Source: a virus. Taken from it: a DNA stretch of 48,606 nt. Position 1 is the first letter of the stretch. Each line of letters opens with the position of its first letter. The stretch covers positions 1 through 48,606 of the IMG/VR virus record IMGVR_UViG_3300037191_002219. One strand, written 5' to 3'. The position numbers were made by a program, and so were the translations under genes. The notes beneath the pieces are model-generated. The model saw nothing but the letters and a program-made list of their open reading frames with translations. It was not told the origin of the DNA and ran no database searches. Shown here in pieces: positions 359 through 19,983 of this stretch.

Positions 359-2077
359 ATGTCTACTAATGGTGCAGCCCTAGTTAACATGTTTGCGGGT
401 ATTTCTAAAAAATATGCAGATAAAGATACACGGCTAGAAGAACAGAAATATGATCTTTTTGTACGTCAAGAAGATCGAAAAGATAAAAACCTTTTACTTC
501 AACAAGAGCAGAATAGATTTAATACTACTAGACAAGATAGGCTTAAGGAAAGTAGATTAAGTAGGGAGGCTACTGCTGCACAAAATATCGCTGCTAATAA
601 GTTAGCAGGGGAGAGGAATACTGTATTAGTAGATAAGGAAAAACGGGAATCTGATATTTATGATGCATCTTTAAAAGATCAAAAGTTATTATCAGAAGTA
701 TCCCTAGACCCTAATATCAATACCCTAGGGCGAAATGTCAGAGGTGCTATAGATAAAGAGTCTGCACTTCTTGCTGCTAGTCAAGCAAAGTTTGATGCCC
801 AGAAAGACGTATTAAATAGTAATATGTCTTTAGCTGACGATGAGGGGGTTCTTAGTGCAACGGGTAATAAGTTACTTGAACAAAGAATGGCCGCTTATGA
901 TGATAGTTATACCTTAGATGAAAAAATAACCTTATCTACCAAAGATATTTTGGCTATTGATGATCAAGCTACTAAGTACTATAACAATGCAAGTAAGTTT
1001 TTGAATTCTGCTCCAAGAAATATAAAGGAAGGTATTGAATTTGCGGTAAATAGTGCTACTGTGGAAGAAAGGGTACGTGCTGCAACAAAAAAACTACAAA
1101 GTAAAGGACATTCTAACGTAGCAAACCAACAGGTAGGTAGTCACCTTACTTCATTATTTTTATCTCGAGGAGCTCGTACAGAAAAAGAGTTACTTAAAGC
1201 TGAGCAAGATATCCATAAAGCTGATAGAGCTTCTAAATCTGCACGATTAAGTACACTAAAAGACCTACGTAAAAATACAAAGGGTAGAGATACTAAAGGA
1301 ATAGACGAAAAAACCTTTAATGAAGCTCTTAAGGGTATAGGGTATAAAGATAAACCAGCAGCAACTGCTACTTACGAGGTATTATTACGTCATAAGAGTT
1401 TAGCGAATGTCGATCAGGGAATAATAAGATCAGCAATGATAATGACTGCTCAACTTGAAGATGGTTGGACTTCAGATAAGCGAACTCTAACAGGTAAAGA
1501 AGGTATTAATACTATAGTATCATTAGCATTAGCTATGAGTAGAGATAATTTTAGTTATGATGACGAAATTAATAAGGTATCAGAGGACTTAAGAAATACC
1601 CCTACAACACTAAGCAGAGAGGAGATACTAGCTGATAGGTACCGTCCTAGTAAAGGAGATAATGCAGTACCTGACTTTACATTACCTTATTTGGGATTTT
1701 CTGCGGTTGAACCTAGATTACCTGAAGTAGATCCTAATGTACCTAAAGCTGGCTCTACCGAAGCTACCCGCAGTGTTTCTGTAGAGGCCTTGACTGCTTA
1801 TGATAAACTCAATAAAAGACAGCAAGCTAGGGCGCAGAACCCTAGGCAGGTAGAAGTGAATAGACTTAAAAATTTACGTAAAGAAGAAGAAACTACCTCT
1901 GAAGAGTTGGACAGAATAGAAAGAGCCATCAATACTGCAAGACAAGTAGCAGTTAGTCCTAGAGCTCTTAAATGGGTTAAAGATGAATATGCTTATAACT
2001 TAAAAGGCTATGAAAAAGAGTTGGTAATAGCAAATAAAAGACTTGCAGCTATTAGAGAGCAACTAAACCCCCAGTAA
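359..2077 (+). CDS. Coiled-coil virion/ejection protein candidate, 572 aa
   Basis: The ATG is preceded by AAAGGA at good spacing, 11 bp after the upstream stop. The protein is highly charged and largely helical. Roughly the first 110 residues are a Lys/Glu/Gln/Arg-rich coiled coil, a second charged helical zone lies near residues 275-310, and a Pro-containing linker region (about 430-480) precedes another helical C-terminal part. No signal peptide, membrane segment or catalytic motif is visible. It sits immediately upstream of the giant vRNAP gene in the same direction. N4 likewise carries virion proteins beside gp50, so an internal or ejected virion protein is the best guess. I do not recognise the family by sequence. 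Confidence 0.6.
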   Translation: MSTNGAALVNMFAGISKKYADKDTRLEEQKYDLFVRQEDRKDKNLLLQQEQNRFNTTRQDRLKESRLSREATAAQNIAANKLAGERNTVLVDKEKRESDIYDASLKDQKLLSEVSLDPNINTLGRNVRGAIDKESALLAASQAKFDAQKDVLNSNMSLADDEGVLSATGNKLLEQRMAAYDDSYTLDEKITLSTKDILAIDDQATKYYNNASKFLNSAPRNIKEGIEFAVNSATVEERVRAATKKLQSKGHSNVANQQVGSHLTSLFLSRGARTEKELLKAEQDIHKADRASKSARLSTLKDLRKNTKGRDTKGIDEKTFNEALKGIGYKDKPAATATYEVLLRHKSLANVDQGIIRSAMIMTAQLEDGWTSDKRTLTGKEGINTIVSLALAMSRDNFSYDDEINKVSEDLRNTPTTLSREEILADRYRPSKGDNAVPDFTLPYLGFSAVEPRLPEVDPNVPKAGSTEATRSVSVEALTAYDKLNKRQQARAQNPRQVEVNRLKNLRKEEETTSEELDRIERAINTARQVAVSPRALKWVKDEYAYNLKGYEKELVIANKRLAAIREQLNPQ

Positions 2078-2151: not shown

Positions 2152-5100
2152 ATGATTAATGACGCTACCTCAGGTACACCTAGTTCTCTTACTTATGATG
2201 AACTGTTAGCCGAACAAGAATATTTTGCCCCTAAAAATCCAAGTAGTACAAGTGGTAGTGTTTTTGAAAAAGCGTTAAATAATGTCGCGTCTGCTAATAA
2301 ATGGGGCGAAGCAGAAACCGGTAACTTTCGTACTTTTATGGATAAAGTAGGGCAAATAGAATCTAATAACATACCAGATAGGGTACAAGGGGACACTAGT
2401 ACAGGTATCGGTAGAGGAAAGTACCAGTATGAGCTATCTACAGGTTCAGGTGCAAATAAGACTGCTTCTAATAGGTTATTTCAATCTTTAAGTACCTTAG
2501 GTATAAGTTTAGATGACATACCTGTAAGAGATAGGCAAATACTTATTGGGGAAGACCCCGATTTTTCTGTTCTTTCTGAAGATGTACAAGATTTAGTTTT
2601 TTTAGCTGATAAATTTCAAGCTGGCGATGTAGACCTGAATGCTATTGCTAAAGGTGATATACCTTTAAAAGAGGCATGGCTAAACACTCATTGGAGAGGA
2701 GCTGAAAAAGATAGAGCTGAAAAAGCTCAGATGTGGGATAACAGATTTAGTAATGGAGTGGCTAGCAACCCTGATGAGCCTGTAGATAATCCATTGGATT
2801 ATGATGCCCTTATAGCAGAAAAAGCTTACTACTCTGACGAATCTAGGGATAGGTTGTACGGTAAGAATAGTTTATTTGATGTAAGCAACCATAAATTAGG
2901 TAATCTAGAAGAAAGCAAAAAAGCAAAGCTAGAGCGCCTTGGACCAAAAGTACAAAATGCAAATTTATCTGATTCTTATACTGAACTAGCTGACGGTAGG
3001 ATTATTAGTAACCGAAATAAAATACACAATGAAATGTCTGATGCTGAGTACTCTTCTTTATGGGAGTACGCAAAAAATAATTTAGCTTTAAGCAGAGATG
3101 ACGATGGTTTATACAATATATCTACAGGGGAACGTTATCAAGGCCCTGTAAGAAGAGCTTACGGCTACGGCACAAAGACTAGCGATGAAGCATTTAAATT
3201 TGGTTTATCGAGAGGAGATAAAGACTCATCTGACGTAAGGTACACTAGATGGGCACCCGGGCCAGATGGTGTAGACATTAACAAGAAAGACTATGATGTA
3301 TTATTACCAGACTACATTGGTATTGCTATTGAGGCTTTAGGGCATGGAAGAGCCAAAGCATTAGAAGGACGTCTAGTTAAAGATGCTTTAGACCTAGAAA
3401 ATTATGATAGGTTTGGTTCTGGGGCAAGTGAGTATTACAAATCTAGGGAAGCTTTCTTTGGAAATCCGGACTCTGCCGATTATGGTAAAGCTTTTAACGC
3501 TGAAGAGGCTAGAAAGACCTTATACAAGTATGCTACACAAGACTATGTAAAACCTTACTATAAAGGTACCGCGTACTCAGATAAAGAATACTTAGATACC
3601 TATACTGCTAGGGTCGTGGAAGAGGTAACACAAAATAGGTATGATAACCAAACTGCTTTAGATGAAGGTATACAAGTACTATCTGCACTACCCGCTGGTG
3701 TCGCTAAAGGTGCACTAGATTTAATAGACGTAGCAATGGAAGTAGCTACTTACATACCTCAAAGTATTGCTAGAGCAGTTACTGGAAATGATAAATTAGA
3801 TATTGATTTGTTTGAGGATGGATTTAAGAAGTCTGTTTTAGGGGTTGTAGATAACGCATTAGGATATGACAGAAAGCTAGATGAAATAACCCTGAACAGG
3901 GCGATGGAGCAAATAACAGCTTCAGGTATTGATATTACTAGCTGGGAAAGTATAAAAGAAGCTTTCACAGATCCGGAAAAAAGAAGTAAGCTAGGGTCTG
4001 CAGCTTGGACTTTACTTAGTGATCCCTCATTAACCGCTTCAATGATTACTGAAATTATAGGTTCTGGAGGTGCTCTTGGAGCTATAAGCAAGACTACTGC
4101 TAAAGTAGTTACTAAAGTTTCCCCTGCTTTTCAAAAAACCGTCAGTAACGCCTTACAGTCTAACTTATCCAAACTAAAAGTAGAAGTAGCTACAGCTACA
4201 AAAGCTAAAGATTTTGCTAGAGTTAAAGAATTACAGGATAGCCATACATTACTTAAAAAAGTCCCTGATCTACTAAAAGGTAGTTATTATACTAACGCAG
4301 ACATGATGGTAAGAATGAATAATGACATTACTATCTTTAAAGAAAATAGTAATGGTGAAGACCCTAGTGCAGATAAAATTTTTGGTATGGCTGTACTTAA
4401 CAGAATAGCATCTACAGCTGAAGTAATTTCATTAAAATCTCTTGTAGGTATGAAAGATATTCCTGCAAATGTAGTGAAAGAGGCAACTAAAAAAGGCCTT
4501 ATTAGCGCTGCAGGTAGAACTATGGGTAGCATAGTCAAGGGCGGAGTAACTGAAGGTGTTCAGGAGACTTTTGACAGTATTGTAGAACAAATTAACCAAA
4601 AAGTAGGCAGTGCTGATTTTGAAGGTAAGTCTGTAGGTGAAGTACTTGCTGAAACTAGTGCAGAAATACTTACAGGTACTTTTGCAGGTATATCTTCTGG
4701 GGTACAATTAGGGGGTGTTAAACCAGCATCTAAACTTGTAAGTCAAGGGCTAGGGAAAGTAGGTCAGAAAGTTTTAGATAAAAAAGGTCAAAATACTGCA
4801 GTCGTAGAAGAAGCAGAAGTTCCTGAAACAGACCTAGATGCAGAAGCGTTAGCAACCGTAGTTACAGAATCAAATAATAAAACTAACGCTACTATAAGTG
4901 CTTACGCTACCATGGTCGATGACGATGAGTATGTAAGCCTAATTGAGGCAGTAGGGGAAAAAGACCAAGAAGATTTAGCCACTCCTATATTAAAAGAAAA
5001 ACTAAGTAGCAGTGATAAAACTTATGCTGAAATAATAGAAGAAGTGGAAGCAGCTGAAGTAGACCTAGAAAGTAGAAAAGGTACAGACAAAGAAACTGAA

Positions 5101-8100
5101 AATGACGAAATGTCATTACGCTTATTCAAAAAAGTTAAAGGGGAAGCTGCTAAGAGTATATTAGAAAGTGAAAAATTGCCTATACTAGGTTCTGGATTCA
5201 GTCCTGAAGATGTAGTAGAGGACTTCCTAGATACTAAAGTAAATGTCGAAGGTAACCTTGATATTACGGATGATGAAAAGGCACTAGTTAACAAATTCCT
5301 TAAGAATAATGGACAAAAACCATTCAGATTTGATCGAATTACTAAAGTAATGGAAGGCAAAGATGCCTCTCAAGTATATGAAGACTCTATGGCGTCAGGA
5401 GCTAATAGTGCACCTAATCGTAGAGCTAGATTAAAGAAACTAGTGAACACTGCCGGTGTAAGTAAAAAACTTATTTCTAATGAGATAGAGGGGATAAGTA
5501 ATTTTCTAAATACCCAAGTTACCCGCAAAAAATTATATGAAGTAGCGGAAAAGAGCCTACAGACAGATATAGATGCGTACAATAAAAATAAGAATAAACC
5601 GGGAGCTAGTGCCGCTAAACCCAAGAAAACTATGGTTGAAGGCCTAGGTAAAAACTACCTTGATGTACAGGTAGACTCTAAAGGTAACTACAAGATAAAA
5701 GATAGTAGTAGAAGTATATTAAACTCAATAGACGATAATATAGACCATCTAGAAACTACACTAAATCGTTATAATAAGGCAACCACTAAAATACTAGGTA
5801 CTAGTTCTGGGAGTTTCCTAGCTGTTCCGGTATCTAGTAGGCTAGACAAGAAAACCCAAGGATACAGAGAAGACGATGTAAAATTTTATGATAAACATAA
5901 ACTTACTAAAGTTATCGTAGATGATGCAAAGGATAGTACTAGTGCTAAACGTTGGCAGAAAAATGGTGACTACAGAAATATAAATGAGTCTAAAGTAGTC
6001 AAACAAAGCACACCATTTACTGCAGAAGACACTGTATTACTTACTACCTTAGACGTAAAAGGTGGAAGTGTTGCTAGTAAAACCTTAGCTGCAGCTATAA
6101 AAGCAGGTGCTACCATAGTAGTAGACCCTTCTCTACTAACGACTAAAAATGCTAAGGGTAAAGTTACTAGTAATAGTATTAAAATAAAAACACTAGCTAA
6201 GAGGTATAAGGCAGGTGCTATAAACGCTAATGGTGCTATAGTGTTTAAGTCTAGGGCTGAAGTTGCTGTTATACAAGCAGAAGGTCGAAAAGAAGCACAG
6301 GCTAAGGATCGGGAAAAGAATGTAAAAAGTAGACTAAAAGCTGCTTTTGATGCAGTAATAACTATAAAAGAAAGAAAGAAAGTAGTAAAAGAGAGTCGGG
6401 AAAAAGGCCTTTCTATGCCCGATAGCTACCGGGAGTTACCGGAATTATCTATTACGAATAATCAAGGTAAGGAATACACATACATTGAACATACAGTAAC
6501 AAAAGACGGTGTAAGGTCTGTATATTATACTTTTGGTCCTAAAGATGAACCTGTAGGTAGCCACCCTAAAACAGGGATCGACCCAAAAAAGCTAAATGAA
6601 GCTTACACAATTAATTCTAAAGATGTACCTAAAGGCACTAAAGTTAGTAAAGTATATGAAATTAGTGTACTTAAAGATGGCACTAATTCTGCAACTGTTG
6701 AATTAATAACAAATAGTGGTGATAAGTATAAAAGGAAAGTTAATTTATCCTATATTGATAAAATAGGCATAAAAGAAGAAGAAGCTTTACGAGTTGCTAA
6801 AGAATTTGCCGCAGAGTATTTTCCTGCTAGTGAAGAAAAGACTAGTGATTCTAAAATGCTGGCATATCTTACTAATGAAATGGCCAAAGAAGTTATCGCG
6901 TTAGAAAAGACATTAACTCCTATAATGGTAAGTAAAGGCACCAACTCTCCAGAATATTCCGAAGCTGTAGGTAAAGCTTCTAAGACTGCCTTACGTGAGA
7001 TACAAAAAAGACTAAAAGCTAAAGAACAAGACTTAACTAAAGGCGGGAAGCTAGTAGAAGAATGGAAAAATGCACAAGAAATAGCCAAGAAAGGTGGTGA
7101 ATCCCTAGCTACATGGGTTAAGTCCACTTTTAAAGAAAAAGCTAGTGGTGCAGTAAAAAGTATGTTGGCTAACTCGAAAGGTAAGAAAGATGCAGCTAAG
7201 ATAAATAAACCAGTTTACTCGTATATCCAAAAAGGAAAGACCAAGTACACTACTACTACAGTATTAGAAGAAGTAGAGAAATTTTCTGAAGATGGTACAT
7301 ATACTGTTACAGAAGTAGACCCAAACAACTATGTGGAAGTCAGTGAGCCTACAGTACTAAATACCTTAAATATTAATGAAATAAAGGTAGAAGGGGAAGC
7401 AAATAAAGAGTTTAATAATTTTGTAGAAGAATCACTAAGCAGATTAACAAGTGTTATAGAATTAAAAAAAGAAACCACTACTTTACCTTTTGACAATATT
7501 GATAGCCCTGCATCCAGTTTAATTTATGATACAGACGGTAACTTAAATGCAAACTTTGCAGTAGCTGCTCGTACCGCTCTCTACTATTTTATACGTAATA
7601 GTAGTTACTTACTGACTAAGGAAGGTAAAACGGTACAGGACATAGCAGAGATACTAGGTAAGCATGAATCTGAACTTTCTATAGAAGCTATCACGGCTAT
7701 GCAGGAACATGGCTTAATGATTAAGACGGTTGCTGATAGTATTGGTAAAGATATCGCCAAACTACTAGGAATCAAAGATAAGAAAAATCCTGAAGTAGAT
7801 GGACAAGCTTTTGGTAGACTTGTAACTGAACTAGGGCAGATAGCGGTACTCATGGGTACCGACAGCAAAGAATCACTTTTTAATGTTACTGAGATGTCTA
7901 GTGAAGACTTTGCTACAAAAGTACTAGGTAAGCAAAAGAAAGATATAACTAAATCAGAATCAGTAGTTAAATTTGTAAGTATCAATAAGCAAGAAAATGT
8001 AGAGGAAGCTATTCTAAAAGTGGAAGCACTAGCAGAGACTCTACCCGGGCTAGACGTAAGACGTAAAGAGCCTTCTTTTAAAGAGATAGACCAAAAAGTA

Positions 8101-10560
8101 ATAGATAAATCTACCGAAAAACCTAGGAAAGAGAGTTTAGGTGTAGGTGTGGCAGGAAAGTCTAAAAAAGCTATGGAAAAGCTTACAAATACTAAAATGA
8201 GTGCTGATATGAAGTTACTTAGGGAAGTAACAGACCCTAAAAATGAAGGAAGAATAAAAAAGCTATTAGGGCATATAGAAATATACACTGATGAAGCTAA
8301 AACAATATATACAGAGGAATTTAAAAAGCTATCACATAAAGAGCAGCTTACTCAGGCTTCTAAGAATAGGGAAGTAGAGCAGTCTATTGCACATTTAAAA
8401 TGGCTAGATGGGGAAGTAAAGCCTACTGATAATAGAAAATCTATGTGGTTTAACTACTTCTTTTCTAAGAATGGTCGTTTTTTTGTAGATAGTAATACTA
8501 TTAATCCACAAAATGACAAACATCTACATAGATTTATAGTACAAGCTTTAGAAAATAATAATACTTTTACGACTACAGGAAAGGGTGCAAACCGGAAATT
8601 TACAGTAAACGGGAAACCTATAACTACTTCAGTGCACTATGCACTAGCTCAAGCATTTGGGTTTGCTACGGATAAGAAAAAAGCTTCCGCTATAAAAGCA
8701 TTTAGTGAAAATATCCTAGCTAATGTAACTACTGTACCACAACTGAATAAAGTAAGAGAAGCTTTCTTAGATAGTGGAAAAGTAAAAACTATTAGTCTAG
8801 GAAGAAAGGGGACTTTTACCCTAGATATAGAAATGGAGCATTTAGGGCATGCACTTCAAGGGTTTGATTTTATGGAAAAAATGCTTTCTAATAAATCATT
8901 TGATAGTTCTCTTTCTGCGGAATTTGATGCTGTAACTAGTGGTTTTGGTTTAAAACTTCTACAAATGCCTATAGTAGGCCCTAAACTTTACGAATGGTTG
9001 GCCAAAGTAGGGATAGTACTTAATACTGATAGTAGGTTGGCTGATTTAGATAATAATGAAATAACAATGAACAACTTACTAGATCTTGGTGGGTTCAAAG
9101 ATAGTTATCAGGAGCTAGCATCAAGTATTCAACAAGTTACTTACGCAAAGATGAAGAGTAGCAGTGACTCTCCTTTATTTAATCTAGAGGATGGATATCC
9201 TAAAGCTTTATGGGAAGCAGTAGCCAAAGTATTGCCTCAAGCAGCAGAGGGGGTTATATCCTCTGATTTACGTAATTTGTTTAAGTACCCTTTTATGACA
9301 TTTAACTATGCTTCTTCTATCAAGTCTATACGAGGCAGGTTAAAGCATACAGTACAGGATGACATAGCTAAGCAAATAGCTGCGTTAGACTTAGATAAGG
9401 CTGATATGGATGACAAGGAAAAGAACATGGTAGCGATGATGGAAGCCTACATAACTAATCGTGGAATGACTACAAAAGAGTTACAGGCACTTGTAAGAGA
9501 AAAGCCATTATTTATGGTAAAGGTAGCTGAGTCCCCATCCCTAGGTAACTACTTAGAAGAAATGATAGATGCTTCTTATGGTACACAGGTACAAGACACA
9601 TTAGACAAAGAGTTTGCTCCTTTCGTTAAAGTACAAGACACAGTAAACAATAGTTTTAAAGCGTTATTTGAAGTGTTCATAGTTTCATTTGAGGAAAAAC
9701 TACTAGAAGCACGTAAAAAAGGAGTTGTGTCTGCTAAAAAAGAGAAGGAGATATACGAATCTCTTAAAAATAAATGGCCTGCTATTAAAGGCCCTCTAAG
9801 CAACATGGAAGAAGAATTTTCCGCAGAAGGTAGCGTAGGTATATATACTATGGATACTGCTTCACCTTTTGGGGTATACGCAGGACAGAAAGCCGCTACT
9901 ACTACGTTATCTGAGAGTGCTGCTAAGGACCTAGGTAGTATGAGTCTTACAACTTCGCATATGATCAAAGCGTTAAGTGCATCCATTTCTGCAGGGTCGG
10001 TAATACCTATCCACTATATTGATGGAGCAGTAATGGCTGATGTTGTTAATGGCCTGAAAGGAGGCATGACAACTATCCATGATGCTATAATTGTTAGTTT
10101 AGAGAGAATGGCTGAAGGACAAGGATTGTATAATAAGTCAGTAATAGAAAGAAGTATGGAGTATAGTTTTATTGACGAACTTGTAAAATCCCTAGATAGA
10201 GTTATAGCAGATACGGAGTTGTATAATGACGACATAACCGGGGAAAAGACCAGCTACCAGAAAGCTGTAGTCAAGTTAGAAAAGGGAAAATCAACTACTG
10301 TAGCAGACTACATAATATCTATGAGAAATGAGATTGCAGAAACAGCAAATCAAACTAATGCTGCACGTAAAGAGTTATTTGGTACTCTTGCTAAAGGTGC
10401 TCAGGTAATGCATATGGCAGGTACTTCTGGCGGAGTGTACAAGACAGGAGGTACGGATTCTACTGTAAAGTATAAGGAAGTTGACAGATACTTACCTATA
10501 CCGGATAATATAGAAAGACAAAAGAACATAATTGCTGAAGCCGCAAAAAACTCATGCTGA
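2152..10560 (+). CDS. N4-type virion RNA polymerase (N-terminal + RNAP part) with SLT-like domain
   Basis: This 2802-aa protein carries single-subunit RNAP motifs in order. GR motif: S-K-N-G-R at 2105-2109, followed by I-N-P-Q-N-D at 2117-2122 like the T7 FNPQ-ND segment. Motif A: D2259 in D-A-V-T-S-G. Motif B: R2374-x3-K2378-x7-Y2386, with Ala instead of the usual Gly after Tyr. A T7-like D-G element is at 2624, and motif C is H2643-D2644. The spacings (150, 119, 266) closely follow N4 mini-vRNAP (about 135, 111, 281). About 158 residues follow motif C, as in the N4 RNAP domain. Near the N-terminus, E70 in Q-I-E-S-N-N and G-x-G-K-Y-Q (87-92) resemble an SLT transglycosylase. Hydrophobic and Gly-rich segments occur near 505-540, 620-650 and 800-850. 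By N4 analogy it is injected and transcribes early genes; the C-terminal ejection domain appears to be the next gene. The start has GGAAG 6 bp upstream. Confidence 0.9.
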   Translation: MINDATSGTPSSLTYDELLAEQEYFAPKNPSSTSGSVFEKALNNVASANKWGEAETGNFRTFMDKVGQIESNNIPDRVQGDTSTGIGRGKYQYELSTGSGANKTASNRLFQSLSTLGISLDDIPVRDRQILIGEDPDFSVLSEDVQDLVFLADKFQAGDVDLNAIAKGDIPLKEAWLNTHWRGAEKDRAEKAQMWDNRFSNGVASNPDEPVDNPLDYDALIAEKAYYSDESRDRLYGKNSLFDVSNHKLGNLEESKKAKLERLGPKVQNANLSDSYTELADGRIISNRNKIHNEMSDAEYSSLWEYAKNNLALSRDDDGLYNISTGERYQGPVRRAYGYGTKTSDEAFKFGLSRGDKDSSDVRYTRWAPGPDGVDINKKDYDVLLPDYIGIAIEALGHGRAKALEGRLVKDALDLENYDRFGSGASEYYKSREAFFGNPDSADYGKAFNAEEARKTLYKYATQDYVKPYYKGTAYSDKEYLDTYTARVVEEVTQNRYDNQTALDEGIQVLSALPAGVAKGALDLIDVAMEVATYIPQSIARAVTGNDKLDIDLFEDGFKKSVLGVVDNALGYDRKLDEITLNRAMEQITASGIDITSWESIKEAFTDPEKRSKLGSAAWTLLSDPSLTASMITEIIGSGGALGAISKTTAKVVTKVSPAFQKTVSNALQSNLSKLKVEVATATKAKDFARVKELQDSHTLLKKVPDLLKGSYYTNADMMVRMNNDITIFKENSNGEDPSADKIFGMAVLNRIASTAEVISLKSLVGMKDIPANVVKEATKKGLISAAGRTMGSIVKGGVTEGVQETFDSIVEQINQKVGSADFEGKSVGEVLAETSAEILTGTFAGISSGVQLGGVKPASKLVSQGLGKVGQKVLDKKGQNTAVVEEAEVPETDLDAEALATVVTESNNKTNATISAYATMVDDDEYVSLIEAVGEKDQEDLATPILKEKLSSSDKTYAEIIEEVEAAEVDLESRKGTDKETENDEMSLRLFKKVKGEAAKSILESEKLPILGSGFSPEDVVEDFLDTKVNVEGNLDITDDEKALVNKFLKNNGQKPFRFDRITKVMEGKDASQVYEDSMASGANSAPNRRARLKKLVNTAGVSKKLISNEIEGISNFLNTQVTRKKLYEVAEKSLQTDIDAYNKNKNKPGASAAKPKKTMVEGLGKNYLDVQVDSKGNYKIKDSSRSILNSIDDNIDHLETTLNRYNKATTKILGTSSGSFLAVPVSSRLDKKTQGYREDDVKFYDKHKLTKVIVDDAKDSTSAKRWQKNGDYRNINESKVVKQSTPFTAEDTVLLTTLDVKGGSVASKTLAAAIKAGATIVVDPSLLTTKNAKGKVTSNSIKIKTLAKRYKAGAINANGAIVFKSRAEVAVIQAEGRKEAQAKDREKNVKSRLKAAFDAVITIKERKKVVKESREKGLSMPDSYRELPELSITNNQGKEYTYIEHTVTKDGVRSVYYTFGPKDEPVGSHPKTGIDPKKLNEAYTINSKDVPKGTKVSKVYEISVLKDGTNSATVELITNSGDKYKRKVNLSYIDKIGIKEEEALRVAKEFAAEYFPASEEKTSDSKMLAYLTNEMAKEVIALEKTLTPIMVSKGTNSPEYSEAVGKASKTALREIQKRLKAKEQDLTKGGKLVEEWKNAQEIAKKGGESLATWVKSTFKEKASGAVKSMLANSKGKKDAAKINKPVYSYIQKGKTKYTTTTVLEEVEKFSEDGTYTVTEVDPNNYVEVSEPTVLNTLNINEIKVEGEANKEFNNFVEESLSRLTSVIELKKETTTLPFDNIDSPASSLIYDTDGNLNANFAVAARTALYYFIRNSSYLLTKEGKTVQDIAEILGKHESELSIEAITAMQEHGLMIKTVADSIGKDIAKLLGIKDKKNPEVDGQAFGRLVTELGQIAVLMGTDSKESLFNVTEMSSEDFATKVLGKQKKDITKSESVVKFVSINKQENVEEAILKVEALAETLPGLDVRRKEPSFKEIDQKVIDKSTEKPRKESLGVGVAGKSKKAMEKLTNTKMSADMKLLREVTDPKNEGRIKKLLGHIEIYTDEAKTIYTEEFKKLSHKEQLTQASKNREVEQSIAHLKWLDGEVKPTDNRKSMWFNYFFSKNGRFFVDSNTINPQNDKHLHRFIVQALENNNTFTTTGKGANRKFTVNGKPITTSVHYALAQAFGFATDKKKASAIKAFSENILANVTTVPQLNKVREAFLDSGKVKTISLGRKGTFTLDIEMEHLGHALQGFDFMEKMLSNKSFDSSLSAEFDAVTSGFGLKLLQMPIVGPKLYEWLAKVGIVLNTDSRLADLDNNEITMNNLLDLGGFKDSYQELASSIQQVTYAKMKSSSDSPLFNLEDGYPKALWEAVAKVLPQAAEGVISSDLRNLFKYPFMTFNYASSIKSIRGRLKHTVQDDIAKQIAALDLDKADMDDKEKNMVAMMEAYITNRGMTTKELQALVREKPLFMVKVAESPSLGNYLEEMIDASYGTQVQDTLDKEFAPFVKVQDTVNNSFKALFEVFIVSFEEKLLEARKKGVVSAKKEKEIYESLKNKWPAIKGPLSNMEEEFSAEGSVGIYTMDTASPFGVYAGQKAATTTLSESAAKDLGSMSLTTSHMIKALSASISAGSVIPIHYIDGAVMADVVNGLKGGMTTIHDAIIVSLERMAEGQGLYNKSVIERSMEYSFIDELVKSLDRVIADTELYNDDITGEKTSYQKAVVKLEKGKSTTVADYIISMRNEIAETANQTNAARKELFGTLAKGAQVMHMAGTSGGVYKTGGTDSTVKYKEVDRYLPIPDNIERQKNIIAEAAKNSC

Positions 10561-10586
10561 TAACCAGCAAATAAATAGGAAATTAT

Positions 10587-13500
10587 ATGATTACCTGTAC
10601 CTTACCTTCCGTCCTTAGTGACTATGTAGAAGATCTTGCAGCTGCTGTAGAAAAAAGAGCTCAAGATGATACTCTAGAGGGTATAGATAGCTCTTCTTAT
10701 AATTCATCTCTAGACGAACTAAATGCTTACAGAGAAGCCATAAAAAATAACGATAGAGATTTTATCGTAGCTCAGGGTAACTTAAGTGATGTTAAAGCGT
10801 TTAGGAGTGGACTAGCTACTACAAGTTTTCTAAATACCCTCAATAATACGTTCTTTTTTGGAAAAAAAGGAGGCCCTCTTAAATTTAGAGGTACTTTTAT
10901 GCATGCTGATGTAGTCGATGGGGGGGTAAAGATAAACTTTAGGCATAGTAATGGTAATAGAGATCATTTTACTTTTTCACTAACGGGTGGAGGACGTAGT
11001 ACTAACAAAGGTAATGATTTTATAAACATTGAAAATTTTGATAGGTTTTTGGATGATTACCACTTGGCACAAGAAAGACAACTACCCTTGTCTTTACTAC
11101 TAGGTAGTGAACCAAATATTGACTTTAAGCTAGACAAAGAAGCCCTAGAAGATAGTTATATCCATGGTAACGTAGAGCATATGAAGACTATGCTTAAAAA
11201 GCTACATGTGATGGGTGGAGAAAAAGCTGATGATAGTGAGCTAGAGGGTTACTTAGCTCTTATAGATCGTATGAAGCCAGAGTTTTTCGATAAGCTAAAG
11301 TTGTACGTACAAGACAAAGCAGAAAAATCTGCAGGCGTTGTTACTCCTAGCCGTATTGATATAAAAATAAAAGGCGACCCTATATCCATAGGTAACCAGC
11401 AATCAGAAGCTTCTATTTACATGGAAGAAGTTGCCCACAGTATGACTTCGAGTGCACTTAGCTCAAAAACTTCAGAAGCTGCTAAGATAAAACGACAACT
11501 AGATCATCTAATAGAGCTAGGGAGAGATCAACTTTCATGGGAAAGCTTTCTACCTGACCCGAAGGACTCTATAGACGCCGTAAGAGAAAAAGCCTTTGCT
11601 GAGAAACTGTATGACTACATATTTAAAAGTGAGAACTATGACTATGAGTTCCTAGCTAAGGGCATAGTACAACCTTCGGTAGTTAAGGCGCTATCTACAG
11701 TTAAGGTTGTAGACAAGAAAGAAAATTTAAGTATATTGGAAAGGCTACAGGCCATATTCTCTTCTGTAATGGATGTATTAACAGGTAATGTATCATTAAA
11801 GAATAAGAATGGTAACGTACATGATGCCCTAGTTAACTTAGCGTATGAATTAGGTTCAATAAACTCTAGAAAGAGTCAAAAGGCCCTAAGTCAGTCTAGC
11901 TTTATCGGACGAGTACTAGATATAGTTATAAATGACCCAGATAGGTATATCTCAGATAAGCTACATGGGATTACACAAAGAGCTATAGGGAAGGCAAGTA
12001 AGCAAAGGTACACAGATCCACCAAAAACCTTATACGGTCGTACGGTGGGTGTAGCAAAAGCTATAAGCTTATCCTTTGTAAACCCTAGTTACACTAAAGT
12101 TATGGGAGCTGTTGCGACTGCTTGGGGACTTAAGCCTGACGGAATGGTACGAGAAATAGTCAGTGGATTATTTGAGTCAGGACCTGCACAACAAGTTGCA
12201 GAGTTCTTGGTACTACAAGCTGGTTATGTGGATAAAGCACGTAATGAACAAATTGGCCTTAACAGAGATAATATATTAGCAAGTTTTAAAGAGCCTCCCA
12301 CAAAAGAAGAGGAAGAAGCCCTAACAGTTGTGTTTGCGGATACCGACTTGAATATGCTAGTAGGGAAGCAGTCTGTTGCTACAAAGGCAGGCCTTCTGAA
12401 AAATACTGTGTATGATAACTCTACCATACGAGAATTCTTGGCAGATGATGTTGCCCTAGATAAACATATAAAAAATGCTAAAAGAGCCCTAAAAGAGGCT
12501 GATAGTACTCACTATAATTGGCATAGTAATCAAGCCGTAGGTTTAGGCATATACATGGCCAAGCATCAAGGGAGTCCTTCACAAAATAAGAATTCTCATA
12601 ATATTGCGATAGGGCAAGGTAGTAGTCATAAAAAAGCACCCAATAAAAAGGTGATGGAAGCTATTGATGAGCTTGCTACGCTACAGGCCATAAAGAACAC
12701 AGATATGGTATCTAGATTAAATGCAGCCGACCTAATGAAAAAAGATTGGCAAGCAGTACAGAAAATATCAGATATTCTTGAGGGATTTAAAAAGAACTCT
12801 ACAGAAACGGTATTTAAAAAATCTAAGACAAACCAGATTAAAGGATATACAAGAGAAATATTTGATAACGATATCCAAATGGAAGTAGGTCTTTTGTCTG
12901 ATAGAGAATCTATGGAAGCTCAAGGATATACTTTCAAAGGAGCACTACCTGTAAGAGTAGGAGACAAGAGTAGGAAAAAGATGGCTTTGTATGTAGCGGA
13001 TGCACTAAGTAGACCAGAGCGTCTTCGTGGTGGGACACGACTAAACCAGATACGTTCTAAAGGAACAACGGTTACTCAAAGTCAGTACATAGAAGGAAAG
13101 GAATTTTCTAGTAAGGTTATAAGAGAAAGGGCCATAAGAGACATAAACGAAATAGAAAGGATTGCTATTGCAGATGCTAAAAGTATGGAAGCAGGAACAT
13201 ATGACTTTAAAGATGCCATGTTTGGGGTAACTCCTGTCATTAGTGATAGTGGTAAAGTAGTAGACTACACATACATGATGGACAAGAAGACGAAAAAAGA
13301 AATGCTAAAGCAGGATACACGTATTTCTGAAGTAATGGCAAAGTCTTTTGGTAGCTTGGTAGATAAACAACTAAGTGCTGAACACAACGCAAAAGTACTA
13401 GACGCCATAAAAAGTGAAATGGAAAAGAATTGGGAAAAGGGAAGTAAGGGGAAGGATGGGTTAACGGATTACACATTAATTGGACCTAAAGTGGCCAACG

Positions 13501-14771
13501 AAGAAATGCGTAATTTGTATAACATGTTACCTAGGGAGTTCCAAGAGTATATTAACGCTAGGGAAGACAAGACGCTTGCCGTACCCACTAGTTTAAAGAA
13601 CATGTATTTTGGATACACTCAACTAAGCATAATGGATTTCCCGGGACTTAAGAAGGTTACTCCTAAAGTTCTAGAAAAAATTATAAGATTTGCAGAAAGT
13701 ATATGGATGGAATTAGCACAAATCGCTAAAACAAACATTCTAATGAAAATGCCTGCAGTAACAATTAGTAACTTTGTGTCTAATAGTATTTACTTATTTA
13801 TGAAAGGGTATGATCCTTACCAAGTAATAAAGCTACAAGTAGATAGCTTTAAAGCAATTAAAAGCTACAACAGAAATACAAAAAGAAAACAAGAACTACT
13901 AAATTTAAAAAGAGAGTTGGTTGTTGGTTTGAACAGGGAAAATATACTTGCAAGAAGGAAGGCAGAAATAGAGAACCAGTTAGTAAAAATTACTGGTGAA
14001 CTAGTAGCAGTAGAGAAGGGAATAAAAGACAGCAGAATTGATGAATTGATCCAGTTAGGATTAGACCAAACTGTAGAAGATATTAATACAAGTGGTACTG
14101 GAGATAATACCAAAATAGGTGATTTTTTTGATAAACGCCTAGAGAAACTACCTTCGGTAGCACGTACAGGTGTTGATTACTTGTTCTTAACTAAAAGAAC
14201 AGCACCTTATAGAGTTGTTAATGAGTTTTTGGAAATTACTGATTTGATGGCCAGAGATATTCAGAATACAATGGAAAAAAGGACAGAAGAGCAGCAGACT
14301 AGGGGAGATAAAAAACTCCCTAGATGGTGGATAAAACAACAAGGGGAAGGGTATAATGCGAAGAAGCCACTTAACGCAGATCAGAAAGTAAAATTCCTAA
14401 AAGAGGCTAAGCGTATTAGGCAGTATGACCTAGTACAAGACTACATTAACTACCCTCAACCATCCTCTAGTTTTGAGGAATACTTAAACAAAGTAAACAT
14501 TTTGATGTTTACTAAATATGTAAAAAGAATTCAACGTATTATAGGTAAAAGTGCTAGTGAGGGGTTAATAAAGCTTATAATAGTACTAACCTTAACTGGG
14601 TTAGTACTACCACTACCTACTATACATGATCAATCTTTATTTTCTAAAGACTGGTATAGTGACTCCATAGGGCCGGGAAATATCTTTCCTATTTATGCCC
14701 CAACGGATACTATAATGAATGTAATTACTCCTTCGTTACTTAAGGATTCGACTTTTTCTATGGGATACTAG
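10587..14771 (+). CDS. Detached C-terminal (ejection) domain of virion RNA polymerase
   Basis: This 1394-aa gene has its own AGGA ribosome site 7 bp before the ATG. Both its own frame and the upstream frame are closed by stops in the 26-bp gap (TGA-TAA for the upstream gene, TAA at 10572 in this frame), so it is not a simple frameshift. The length almost equals the C-terminal domain of N4 vRNAP (about 1397 aa), which N4 needs for encapsidation and injection. It is mainly charged and helical. A more hydrophobic stretch with N-F-V-S-N-S lies near residue 1055, and a membrane-like segment (L-I-I-V-L-T-L-T-G-L-V-L-P) near 1327-1345. No polymerase motifs remain. The assignment rests on size, position and the upstream gene ending at the RNAP boundary. 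An unrelated internal virion protein is the alternative. Confidence 0.7.
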   Translation: MITCTLPSVLSDYVEDLAAAVEKRAQDDTLEGIDSSSYNSSLDELNAYREAIKNNDRDFIVAQGNLSDVKAFRSGLATTSFLNTLNNTFFFGKKGGPLKFRGTFMHADVVDGGVKINFRHSNGNRDHFTFSLTGGGRSTNKGNDFINIENFDRFLDDYHLAQERQLPLSLLLGSEPNIDFKLDKEALEDSYIHGNVEHMKTMLKKLHVMGGEKADDSELEGYLALIDRMKPEFFDKLKLYVQDKAEKSAGVVTPSRIDIKIKGDPISIGNQQSEASIYMEEVAHSMTSSALSSKTSEAAKIKRQLDHLIELGRDQLSWESFLPDPKDSIDAVREKAFAEKLYDYIFKSENYDYEFLAKGIVQPSVVKALSTVKVVDKKENLSILERLQAIFSSVMDVLTGNVSLKNKNGNVHDALVNLAYELGSINSRKSQKALSQSSFIGRVLDIVINDPDRYISDKLHGITQRAIGKASKQRYTDPPKTLYGRTVGVAKAISLSFVNPSYTKVMGAVATAWGLKPDGMVREIVSGLFESGPAQQVAEFLVLQAGYVDKARNEQIGLNRDNILASFKEPPTKEEEEALTVVFADTDLNMLVGKQSVATKAGLLKNTVYDNSTIREFLADDVALDKHIKNAKRALKEADSTHYNWHSNQAVGLGIYMAKHQGSPSQNKNSHNIAIGQGSSHKKAPNKKVMEAIDELATLQAIKNTDMVSRLNAADLMKKDWQAVQKISDILEGFKKNSTETVFKKSKTNQIKGYTREIFDNDIQMEVGLLSDRESMEAQGYTFKGALPVRVGDKSRKKMALYVADALSRPERLRGGTRLNQIRSKGTTVTQSQYIEGKEFSSKVIRERAIRDINEIERIAIADAKSMEAGTYDFKDAMFGVTPVISDSGKVVDYTYMMDKKTKKEMLKQDTRISEVMAKSFGSLVDKQLSAEHNAKVLDAIKSEMEKNWEKGSKGKDGLTDYTLIGPKVANEEMRNLYNMLPREFQEYINAREDKTLAVPTSLKNMYFGYTQLSIMDFPGLKKVTPKVLEKIIRFAESIWMELAQIAKTNILMKMPAVTISNFVSNSIYLFMKGYDPYQVIKLQVDSFKAIKSYNRNTKRKQELLNLKRELVVGLNRENILARRKAEIENQLVKITGELVAVEKGIKDSRIDELIQLGLDQTVEDINTSGTGDNTKIGDFFDKRLEKLPSVARTGVDYLFLTKRTAPYRVVNEFLEITDLMARDIQNTMEKRTEEQQTRGDKKLPRWWIKQQGEGYNAKKPLNADQKVKFLKEAKRIRQYDLVQDYINYPQPSSSFEEYLNKVNILMFTKYVKRIQRIIGKSASEGLIKLIIVLTLTGLVLPLPTIHDQSLFSKDWYSDSIGPGNIFPIYAPTDTIMNVITPSLLKDSTFSMGY

Positions 14772-17532: not shown

Positions 17533-19983
17533 TTAAAATTTACAGGTAGAACAATCGGACTCAGCTTCAACTACATCACCACGTCCTGTTTTAGGATTAT
17601 TGTAGTACATAGTTTTAATACCCATTTTATTCCAATACAAGTAGTTCTGAGTCCTTTCGGATTTAGGTACTTGTTTGTTTGGGTATTTACTAAAATCAGT
17701 ATATGTATCAGCAGATATTGCTTGGTCTGTAAATTTTTGTACAATAGCATAAAAATTAGCTATATCTTTAAAAGATAAATCCCATACAGTTTCATAATTA
17801 TACTTATCGTAGTTAGGAGCAAAAAATTGAATATCCCCACCTTTTGAGTCTTTGTAAACTACATCATTCCTTATAGGATATACGCTGTTAGTAGAGTTAG
17901 TCATTACACTAGAGCTTTCACAAGGCATATGTGCTGCTAAAACACTAAACCTTACCCCGTACTTAAGAATATCTTTTTTTAGTAATCCCCAATCATATTT
18001 ACAAGTACTATATAACTCATCTACATTATTATTATAGGTATCTAATGGTGTCCATCCTTTATTCCACCTAGTCTTATCAAAGAACTCAAAGGTGCCACGT
18101 TCTTTGGCTAGTCTAATAGAAGCTTTAAGTAGATAGTAGTAATGACGTTCAGCAAGATTATGTACATACTCTAGGTCTTTATAAGATTTACCGTCTTTAG
18201 CAATCTTATGGGCTACATTTGTCATACCTACGCCTACAGACCTCCAAGCTTTAGCTACAGCCTCTATTTGGGGTGTAGGGTAATCCATATTACTTATTAA
18301 GTCATCAATTGCTTTAAGAGCAAAGTAGCAAGCTTCCTCGTAATCTACTTCTTCTGTATTAACAATGTCAATAGCTGCAAGGAAGCATAAAGCTACCATA
18401 CCATCGCCTTCGTCGTATTGTGGTTTATACAACTCTGTAATGTGCCCATATTCTTTTGTAGGTAACAAAATTTCTAGACAAAGGTTACTTTGACGAATAG
18501 GAATGTACTCAGGATCAAAAGGAGTATGTGAATTTGCATGATTAATATTAACTTCATAGTAACGGCCGATTTCTTGCCTAGATTCTAGAAATTGGTCTAA
18601 GACATCAAAAGCATTTACTACTTCTTTTTTTACTGCAGGGTTATTAATTATTGATTCCATTATGGCATCAAATTCATCTGAGTTTTCTTTATAGAAAGCT
18701 TTGTACAGTTCAGGAGACTGTCTTTTGCTTACTAAGGCCCATTGTTGACGTTTAGCAGCTCTTTTAAGGAACGCGCTGTTTACTGCAAGTGAGTAATCAA
18801 GTTTGTCAATTTTACGTTCGTCAGCTGTTCTAGGTAGCTTCAGTTTGAGTAGGTTTTTAATCTCTGGATCCATACAAGTAAACGTAACTGTAGCACTCCC
18901 ACCACGATTTGACTGTCTTACTTCTTTAACAGTAGCAGACAATGTTCTGTAGTGCGGTAGTTTACCTCCAGCTTTTGCATACCCGTTTCGTACATCATCT
19001 TTAGGAGAACGTACATCCATTTCAATACCAATACCAGCACTAGCCGCAGTAGCAAGGAATGCAACGTGTTTAGCTGCCTCAATACCATGTAGGCTATCTC
19101 CACCTGTAATAACAGCGCAAGATACACCAGCATTAGAAGGTGTTCTGGTAGTAGATAGCTGTGGACTAGGTAAATTAAGTTTATGTGTAGATATTAAATT
19201 GTAATACGTAATAATTTCTTTTACAGAGTAGTTTTTAAACCTAGCTATGGCAATTCCCATGTATAAGAATTGAGGGTGTTCTAATAATTGACCTTTAGTG
19301 TTTCTAATAGCATATTTATCACGAAACTGTCGTAATGTAGGGTAGCCGTAAGAAAGATCTCTGTCATGATTAATAGCATTTTTTAATTCTGTTAGTTCAG
19401 AAACAGACATATCCATATCTGCCCAATACTTATTTTCTACCATGTACGTATAGAAACCTACAAAATCCTCTTTAGAAGTAATAATCTTTTTTCTTAAATC
19501 TCCCAGTAGTAGTCTACCTGCTACTTTATTGTGAGATTCGGAGTCTTTATCTAAACAAGCTTTTATTAGTGCGTCTTGAATATCATCAGTTTTTAGCTGA
19601 TTACCTTCAAGTTTTTCCATAGCATCCATTACAATTTCTGACCACTGTACGTTAGGATTGCCTGTAACTGCCCATTCAGCCATTGAATTAATTTTATCTG
19701 CTTCAAAAGGGCCTTCTTTTCCATTACGCTTAATGACAGTTCTTTTTGCTAAACGCACTTTACTATTTAAATGTACCACTAGATCTTCGTACCCTCCAAT
19801 ATAACTATCATTAAAATATATTTGGGGCACTGTAGAGTATCCTTGTAAGACAAGGTTTTCTAATACTTGTTGGTTTTCAGGCGCAGTAATATTAAAATAT
19901 GTTACCTTTAAGCTATTTTTATTAAGTAGCTCTATGGCTTTACTGCAAAAAGGGCAATTAGGTTTGCCGTGTACTATAAACAT
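17533..19983 (-). CDS. nrdA: Ribonucleotide reductase alpha subunit fused to glutaredoxin
   Basis: The 816-aa protein begins with a glutaredoxin domain (about 1-75): C-P-F-C at 11-14 and T-V-P-Q-I-Y with G-G-Y. An ATP-cone domain follows (about 80-170, V-I-K-R-N-G-K). The catalytic barrel shows C289 in G-V-S-C and C533 in A-L-C-F as the redox pair, and thiyl C502 in S-N-L-C-L-E (the N-x-C-x-E signature). The Tyr pair region and the C-terminal shuttle cysteines C811/C814 are present. The fused glutaredoxin probably re-reduces the C-terminal cysteines, making the enzyme independent of host thioredoxin. The start has AGAGGAAC upstream. The presence of an ATP cone suggests dATP feedback, unless it is degenerate. 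Confidence 0.97.
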   Translation of the reverse strand: MFIVHGKPNCPFCSKAIELLNKNSLKVTYFNITAPENQQVLENLVLQGYSTVPQIYFNDSYIGGYEDLVVHLNSKVRLAKRTVIKRNGKEGPFEADKINSMAEWAVTGNPNVQWSEIVMDAMEKLEGNQLKTDDIQDALIKACLDKDSESHNKVAGRLLLGDLRKKIITSKEDFVGFYTYMVENKYWADMDMSVSELTELKNAINHDRDLSYGYPTLRQFRDKYAIRNTKGQLLEHPQFLYMGIAIARFKNYSVKEIITYYNLISTHKLNLPSPQLSTTRTPSNAGVSCAVITGGDSLHGIEAAKHVAFLATAASAGIGIEMDVRSPKDDVRNGYAKAGGKLPHYRTLSATVKEVRQSNRGGSATVTFTCMDPEIKNLLKLKLPRTADERKIDKLDYSLAVNSAFLKRAAKRQQWALVSKRQSPELYKAFYKENSDEFDAIMESIINNPAVKKEVVNAFDVLDQFLESRQEIGRYYEVNINHANSHTPFDPEYIPIRQSNLCLEILLPTKEYGHITELYKPQYDEGDGMVALCFLAAIDIVNTEEVDYEEACYFALKAIDDLISNMDYPTPQIEAVAKAWRSVGVGMTNVAHKIAKDGKSYKDLEYVHNLAERHYYYLLKASIRLAKERGTFEFFDKTRWNKGWTPLDTYNNNVDELYSTCKYDWGLLKKDILKYGVRFSVLAAHMPCESSSVMTNSTNSVYPIRNDVVYKDSKGGDIQFFAPNYDKYNYETVWDLSFKDIANFYAIVQKFTDQAISADTYTDFSKYPNKQVPKSERTQNYLYWNKMGIKTMYYNNPKTGRGDVVEAESDCSTCKF

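Follow-up and report, generated by a model that had tools for sequence, protein, structure and literature searches.

The DNA considered here, hereafter called the window, is a virus record of 48,606 nt from IMG/VR (IMGVR_UViG_3300037191_002219). In this fragment of 48.6 kb, genes matching phage DNA polymerase, primase and rII were found. Two adjacent genes of the window (Table 1) encode the parts of a virion RNA polymerase (vRNAP) of the type found in bacteriophage N4, where the corresponding protein is gp50. The first chain comprises the N-terminal region together with the single-subunit RNA polymerase (RNAP), and the second chain is the C-terminal domain (CTD). Both open reading frames (ORFs) lie exactly where a sequence-only reading of this DNA had placed them, and the second gene has, as that reading stated, its own ribosome-binding site inside the short gap that separates it from the first.

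The relationship of the two chains to N4 gp50 is seen at the level of individual catalytic residues. In a motif alignment of 11 sequences, including seven fused vRNAPs, residues R2109, D2259, K2378, Y2386 and D2644 of the window align with R1421, D1556, K1667, Y1675 and D1948 of N4 gp50. When 997 is subtracted from the gp50 numbers, these are the catalytic residues R424, D559, K670, Y678 and D951 named for the mini-vRNAP (PMC2784036). The full set of N4-type catalytic motifs that had been assigned to the 2802-residue protein is therefore present, each motif aligning onto a catalytic residue of gp50. Motif B contains Tyr-Ala, as had been noticed, and Tyr-Gly is found in most fused relatives. 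The size argument also stands: the 158 residues that follow motif C in chain 1 and the 1394 residues of chain 2 add up to 1552, which is equal to N4.

The vRNAP family of the PHROGs database, phrog_2206, matches the two chains in order, first chain 1 and then chain 2. Positions 216-1981 of the family match nucleotides 4006-10464 of the window (219 bits), and positions 2346-3342 match nucleotides 11424-14543 (389 bits). In an hmmscan search against PHROGs, chain 2 matches phrog_2206 with 3.6e-116; the entire chain 1 gave no match in such a search, though phrog_2206 had matched the genome. A Pfam scan of the chains produced nothing useful, and no match in the PDB was obtained with single-sequence phmmer searches of either chain or with the A5 profile. 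The sole profile that reached N4 was headed by the window polymerase, with fused relatives added and N4 left out, and it finds the N4 structure 2po4 with 7e-52. An AlphaFold model of residues 1661-2802 of chain 1 (mean predicted local distance difference test score, pLDDT, 63.5) has the N4 mini-vRNAP as its top match (3c3l, E 4.2e-20), and T7 RNAP ranks below it. For a model of residues 1-1000 of chain 2 (mean pLDDT 64.8), the sole significant structural matches are N4 vRNAP structures, 9pnt (E 2.0e-12) and 9pnr. The profile and structure searches, by which the sequence-only reading had proposed to check its assignment, thus lead from both parts to N4 vRNAP. The label of "ejection domain", which had been given to the C-terminal part, has to be abandoned: this part functions in encapsidation (PMC4496689) and autoinhibition (PMC12633501), and the injection domain is the N-terminal one.

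The window vRNAP shares with N4 gp50 and the vRNAPs of Schitoviridae the order of the parts, the catalytic residues and a chain body free of cysteine, and its gene, like that of gp50, comes last in the operon for virion proteins. N4 gp50 and the other fused vRNAPs, however, are single chains of 3,000-3,800 aa with no cysteines, whereas the window protein is made of two chains, each of which has one cysteine at the break. It has the single-subunit RNAP motifs with R, D, K, Y and D, and its large C-terminal domain belongs to the gp50 family; because it is neither one chain of such length nor devoid of cysteine, it is classed as a split form of vRNAP rather than a standard one. A heterodimeric T7-like polymerase encoded by two genes is also present in N4 in the form of RNAPII (gp15/gp16; PMC4496689), but RNAPII is not a virion protein, the cut lies within the polymerase, and a terminal-cysteine rule is unreported.

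Scanning IMG/VR with a codon pattern for a conserved stretch of the C-terminal domain, with subsequent follow-up of the contigs, enlarged the set of records with a break at the RNAP|CTD boundary to 15, namely the window, Alteromonas phage AD45 and 13 more divergent ones. The chains have 2495 + 1409 aa in AD45-P1 (gap of 7 nt), 2431 + 1390 aa in record L001 (TAATG overlap), 2510 + 1439 aa in L003 (gap of 15 nt) and 2391 + 1394 aa in L181. A third of the records (5 of 15) have three chains; one of them is L018, the polymerase of which is only 25% identical. The gaps at the junctions range from -11 to +26 nt, all three frame relations occur, and stop-start overlaps such as TAATG are found at several junctions. 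A scan of genome contigs added one fused vRNAP and one split phage contig, which is binned in a metagenome-assembled genome (MAG) of Sulfolobales. This contig (L181, CALIBI010000067.1) represents a phage of the window's clade, and its assignment to a Sulfolobales archaeon is probably a binning error.

The Alteromonas phages AD45-P1 to P4 (KF005317-KF005320) are split at the same place as the window, and their chain 2 is 57% identical to that of the window. In AD45, chain 1 ends in ...ASKHCKQ and chain 2 begins with MTIC, and each of these stretches holds the only cysteine of its chain. The whole vRNAP region of AD45 was deposited as one misc_feature, "potential frameshift", with no CDS. Zheng et al. 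(PMC10654107) remarked that the AD45 vRNAP consists of two adjacent ORFs, suspected a gene-calling error or read-through, and concatenated the ORFs. The statement that no natural split of a vRNAP was on record is thus wrong. Phages R22Y (PP212876) and V19 (OP751378) also have a split vRNAP with one cysteine at each break-facing end, but here the cut is at the linker between the N-terminal domain (NTD) and the polymerase, after about 1000 residues. The chains are 1008 aa (C1004) and 2083 aa (C6) long in R22Y, and 1000 aa (C997) and 2082 aa (C6) long in V19. The 2,083-aa protein published as the R22Y vRNAP (PMC11705849) is the second of two chains. The homology of both parts and the retention of the break in further records bear out the proposal that an N4-type vRNAP is naturally cut at the boundary between the polymerase and the C-domain.

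In a tree of the C-domain, which was made by a quick method and without bootstrap, all 15 RNAP|CTD-split records fall on one side of a branch (SH-aLRT 97), as opposed to 29 fused ones. The split clade is located beside the fused set and not inside it. R22Y and V19 sit on a long branch of their own, an indication that their split arose independently.

Each of the two window chains has a sole cysteine, a property that the sequence-only reading did not mention. Fused vRNAPs have no cysteine whatsoever in 40 distinct RNAP+CTD ORFs, or about 115,000 residues. The absence of cysteine from vRNAP has been published before, and has been ascribed to the passage through the tail and to disulfide formation in the periplasm (PMC2784036, PMC3715699, PMC3915230). 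Across the 60,921 residues of the split vRNAPs, which comprise 17 systems and 22 junctions, there are 44 cysteines, two per junction without exception, where about 710 would be expected at the 1.16% cysteine content of the other window genes. All of these cysteines, called hooks below, are positioned either 0-5 residues from a break-facing C-terminus or at residue 3-6 of a break-facing N-terminus; one N-terminal hook is at residue 10, if a GTG start is used. The outer ends, which are the N-terminus of the first chains (where the sequence reaches it) and the C-terminus of the last chains, are free of cysteine. Middle chains have one cysteine at each end and none elsewhere. The probability of such a placement by chance is about 10^-22, with one representative taken per break type. 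The terminal cysteines are invariant across a divergence that leaves few invariant columns. As TGT and TGC are both used to encode them, and their distances to the stop and to the start vary, selection acts on the amino acid. No counter-example to this rule was encountered in the loci retrieved as far as L182, and the sole C-domain breaks without a cysteine there are those of short frame-broken pieces, for example L159 and L165.

The middle chain of L018 (4e-26), L045 (3e-22) and L074 (1e-24) contains a helicase of the SF1 type (Pfam AAA_30). The middle chain of L060 belongs to the same tree group, and it is by tree group only that it is assigned as a helicase. The helicase chains also hold an HExxH stretch. 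As judged from the sequences, this helicase seems to form part of one filament with the vRNAP and may be injected with it. An involvement of the N4 C-domain in DNA unwinding has been put forward as speculation by Bellis et al. (PMC12633501). A zincin-like HExxH is also observed in the C-domain of several relatives, such as L018 P0005 (IYVHELYHAV); in the window clade it is degenerate (residues 276-287 of chain 2, IYMEEVAHSMTS).

Table 1. Features of the split vRNAP in the window, and middle chains of three-chain relatives (positions are those of the window unless a record is named).
Feature	Position	Strand	Length	Details
Chain 1: vRNAP N-terminal region and single-subunit RNA polymerase	2152..10560	+	2802 aa	
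Chain 2: vRNAP C-terminal (encapsidation/autoinhibitory) domain	10587..14771	+	1394 aa	
Extra N-terminal segment of chain 1	2152..2871	+	~240 aa	From alignment
Gly-Arg of T/DxxGR motif	8473..8478	+		G2108-R2109 (N4 R1421); from alignment
Motif A, catalytic Asp	8926..8928	+		D2259 (N4 D1556); from alignment
Motif B	9283..9309	+		K2378...Y2386 (N4 K1667/Y1675), then Ala; from alignment
Motif C, catalytic Asp	10081..10083	+		D2644 in IHDA (N4 D1948); from alignment
C-terminal cysteine hook of chain 1	10555..10557	+		C2802, last residue and sole Cys of chain 1
Junction between the chains	10561..10586	+	26 bp	Ribosome-binding site AGGAAA at 10577-10582
N-terminal cysteine hook of chain 2	10596..10598	+		C4, sole Cys of chain 2
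Upstream gene in the position that gp51 (ejection protein) has in N4	359..2077	+	572 aa	Cys-free
Middle chain, L018	L018:4397-7429		1010 aa	Cys 4, 1007; helicase (Pfam AAA_30) between polymerase and C-domain
Middle chain, L045/L110	L110:7194-10133		979 aa	Cys 4, 974; helicase (Pfam AAA_30) between polymerase and C-domain
Middle chain, L060			875 aa	Cys 5, 870
Middle chain, L074/L111	L111:3370-5820		816 aa	Cys 4, 812; helicase (Pfam AAA_30) between polymerase and C-domain
Middle chain, L087/L109	L109:9796-11022		408 aa	Cys 3, 407 only; no Pfam match, HExxH present; between polymerase and C-domain

From these observations we infer that the vRNAP of the window consists of two polypeptides cut at a linker, the break being most likely bridged by one interchain disulfide, C2802-C4. 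In N4 gp50, the N-domain, the polymerase and the C-domain are arranged as beads on two flexible linkers, residues 907-1007 and 2102-2123 (PMC12633501). The protein is threaded through a channel of about 35 Å, and the C-domain inhibits the polymerase (PMC12633501; 2025 structural study). Both kinds of break, RNAP|CTD and NTD|RNAP, coincide with these two linkers, and in the AlphaFold models both hooks lie in tails of low confidence. The cysteine at the C-terminus of chain 1 would bond to the cysteine near the N-terminus of chain 2, the bond replacing the interdomain linker, and the product would be a head-to-tail string that corresponds to a single vRNAP of about 4,200 residues. As the remainder of both chains is free of cysteine, the two hooks could pair only with each other. 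In an oxidising setting, such as the mature virion and the host periplasm, the bond would allow the chains to be packaged together and threaded in single file through the tail and the periplasm. In the reducing cytoplasm the bond could be reduced, and the polymerase would then be freed from the domain that inhibits it in N4. The earlier suggestion that the two parts assemble as a complex thus receives strong, if indirect, support from the cysteine pattern.

Several points weigh against this proposal. The bond is predicted from a sequence pattern. The chains are made in the reducing cytoplasm, so that the bond would have to form late. A search of eight split genomes for an Erv1-type oxidase, the one family tried, gave no match; the control was silent too, and the result is therefore uninformative. 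That all other cysteines are kept out suggests a danger from disulfides during transit, and the model nevertheless makes use of one. The first chain is 5'-incomplete in five contigs, where a further upstream cysteine is possible. Finally, the 15 RNAP|CTD splits form one deep clade, and most of the junctions are therefore not independent events. As most junctions come from one ancestral split, it is the kinds of break that provide independent support, namely RNAP|CTD, NTD|RNAP and the flanks of the inserted middle chains, the latter being placed by the tree at two separate positions.

Glutaredoxin matches are present in four of the eight split genomes, two of them above the cut-off, and do not constitute evidence for the disulfide. 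In the window, the large subunit of ribonucleotide reductase (17533-19983) carries the glutaredoxin domain (19798-19968, minus strand) as a fusion at its N-terminus.

The terminal cysteines might instead serve another role: they could form disulfides between like chains, bind a metal at the joint, or act as a handle that a packaging or translocation factor grips in a thiol-dependent manner. The N4 virion carries about four copies of vRNAP (PMC4496689), which makes other pairings possible, and the bond from chain n to chain n+1 is a predicted one. The cysteines, however, are confined to the break-facing ends, one per side and two on middle chains. Outer ends free of cysteine and middle chains with two are predicted by linear concatenation, but not by like-with-like pairing or a general handle, and no other conserved ligand of a metal accompanies the cysteine in the 22 junction sequences. 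Such other roles are therefore considered improbable. It is more doubtful still that the split permits unequal amounts of the chains, or that the C-domain is retained in the particle and only chain 1 is injected, with the cysteines just holding the pair together in the virion. In N4, encapsidation requires the C-domain and injection requires the N-domain, according to unpublished work cited in PMC4496689. Nevertheless, the short or overlapping junctions favour coupled, near-equal translation, and the helicase of the three-chain systems, which sits between the polymerase and the C-domain, would be more useful inside the cell. Non-covalent contacts between the RNAP and the C-domain do exist in N4 (PMC12633501), but there is little likelihood that the chains are held by such contacts and that the cysteines are functionless residues tolerated at loose ends, since they are invariant at the break-facing ends and absent elsewhere, outer ends included, at the chance probability given above. 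A single gene that errors of sequencing or assembly have interrupted, or whose parts are joined in translation via a programmed frameshift or stop read-through, as the "potential frameshift" flag of GenBank KF005317 and the mistakes in gene calling or read-through proposed for AD45-P1 (PMC10654107) would have it, is refuted as far as sequence can show and, for the frameshift that the sequence-only reading had already thought unlikely, excluded for practical purposes, because the gaps and frame relations differ among the 15 records and because N4 homology is continuous across the true frame errors of phage pSb-1, which have no cysteine.

This Shigella phage (pSb-1; L183, NC_023589) is the other case of a vRNAP on record as several ORFs and makes a good control. 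Its three annotated vRNAP genes, gp101-103, are pieces of a single gene that frame errors have interrupted, the N4 homology continuing through the breaks in other frames. The frame-error breaks of pSb-1, L159 and L165 are all free of cysteine. A candidate for a split without cysteines, L059, was rejected: its ORF starts 154 nt from the contig end and the family match continues through two stops, so that L059 is a broken contig end.

The predicted packaging of the vRNAP chains in the virion and their predicted injection fit the position of their genes beside gp51/gp52-like genes. The product of the 572-aa gene upstream of chain 1 is probably co-ejected with the vRNAP, as judged by its position and not by homology. 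The genes ahead of the vRNAP, at the gp51/gp52 position, are free of cysteine in the window (359-2077) and in their equivalents in L106, L107, L109, L113, L114 and L115, as are N4 gp51 and gp52, which are ejection proteins (PMC12633501). The lack of cysteine might seem to mark ejected proteins in general, but the N4 major capsid protein and gp57 are also free of cysteine. The extra segment at the N-terminus of chain 1 is missing from L001 and AD45 in the alignment, and a PHROGs scan of it was without match. By eye, this segment resembles a peptidoglycan-hydrolase/structural lysozyme motif (IESNN...GRGKYQYE), a resemblance that is unconfirmed. The ejection proteins of N4 are said to be without peptidoglycan-hydrolase activity.

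In the literature searched, which left out most subscription journals, no description was found of a terminal cysteine in a vRNAP or of a disulfide-joined vRNAP, and the joining of injected proteins by disulfides was found described nowhere. The chances are about even that the cysteine hooks represent a general device, in which giant ejected proteins are kept free of cysteine so that any domain, for example the helicase (L018, L045, L074), could come as a separate chain and be joined into the ejected filament via a terminal cysteine pair. Such chains would be joined in the oxidising virion and periplasm and unjoined in the cytoplasm, and the redox state of the host would be the signal for polymerase release.

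How a polymerase of 3,500 residues passes through a channel of about 35 Å and is active beyond it has yet to be explained for N4-like phages (PMC12633501). The splits, which occur at exactly the two flexible linkers and are accompanied by pairs of cysteines that are otherwise absent, tell which joints of the protein tolerate a cut and that the string has to hold together. The Alteromonas phages make both the travel of the polymerase as a single string and the role of host redox in the infection directly testable, and the split systems show how new enzymes, such as the helicase, can be added to the injected machine.

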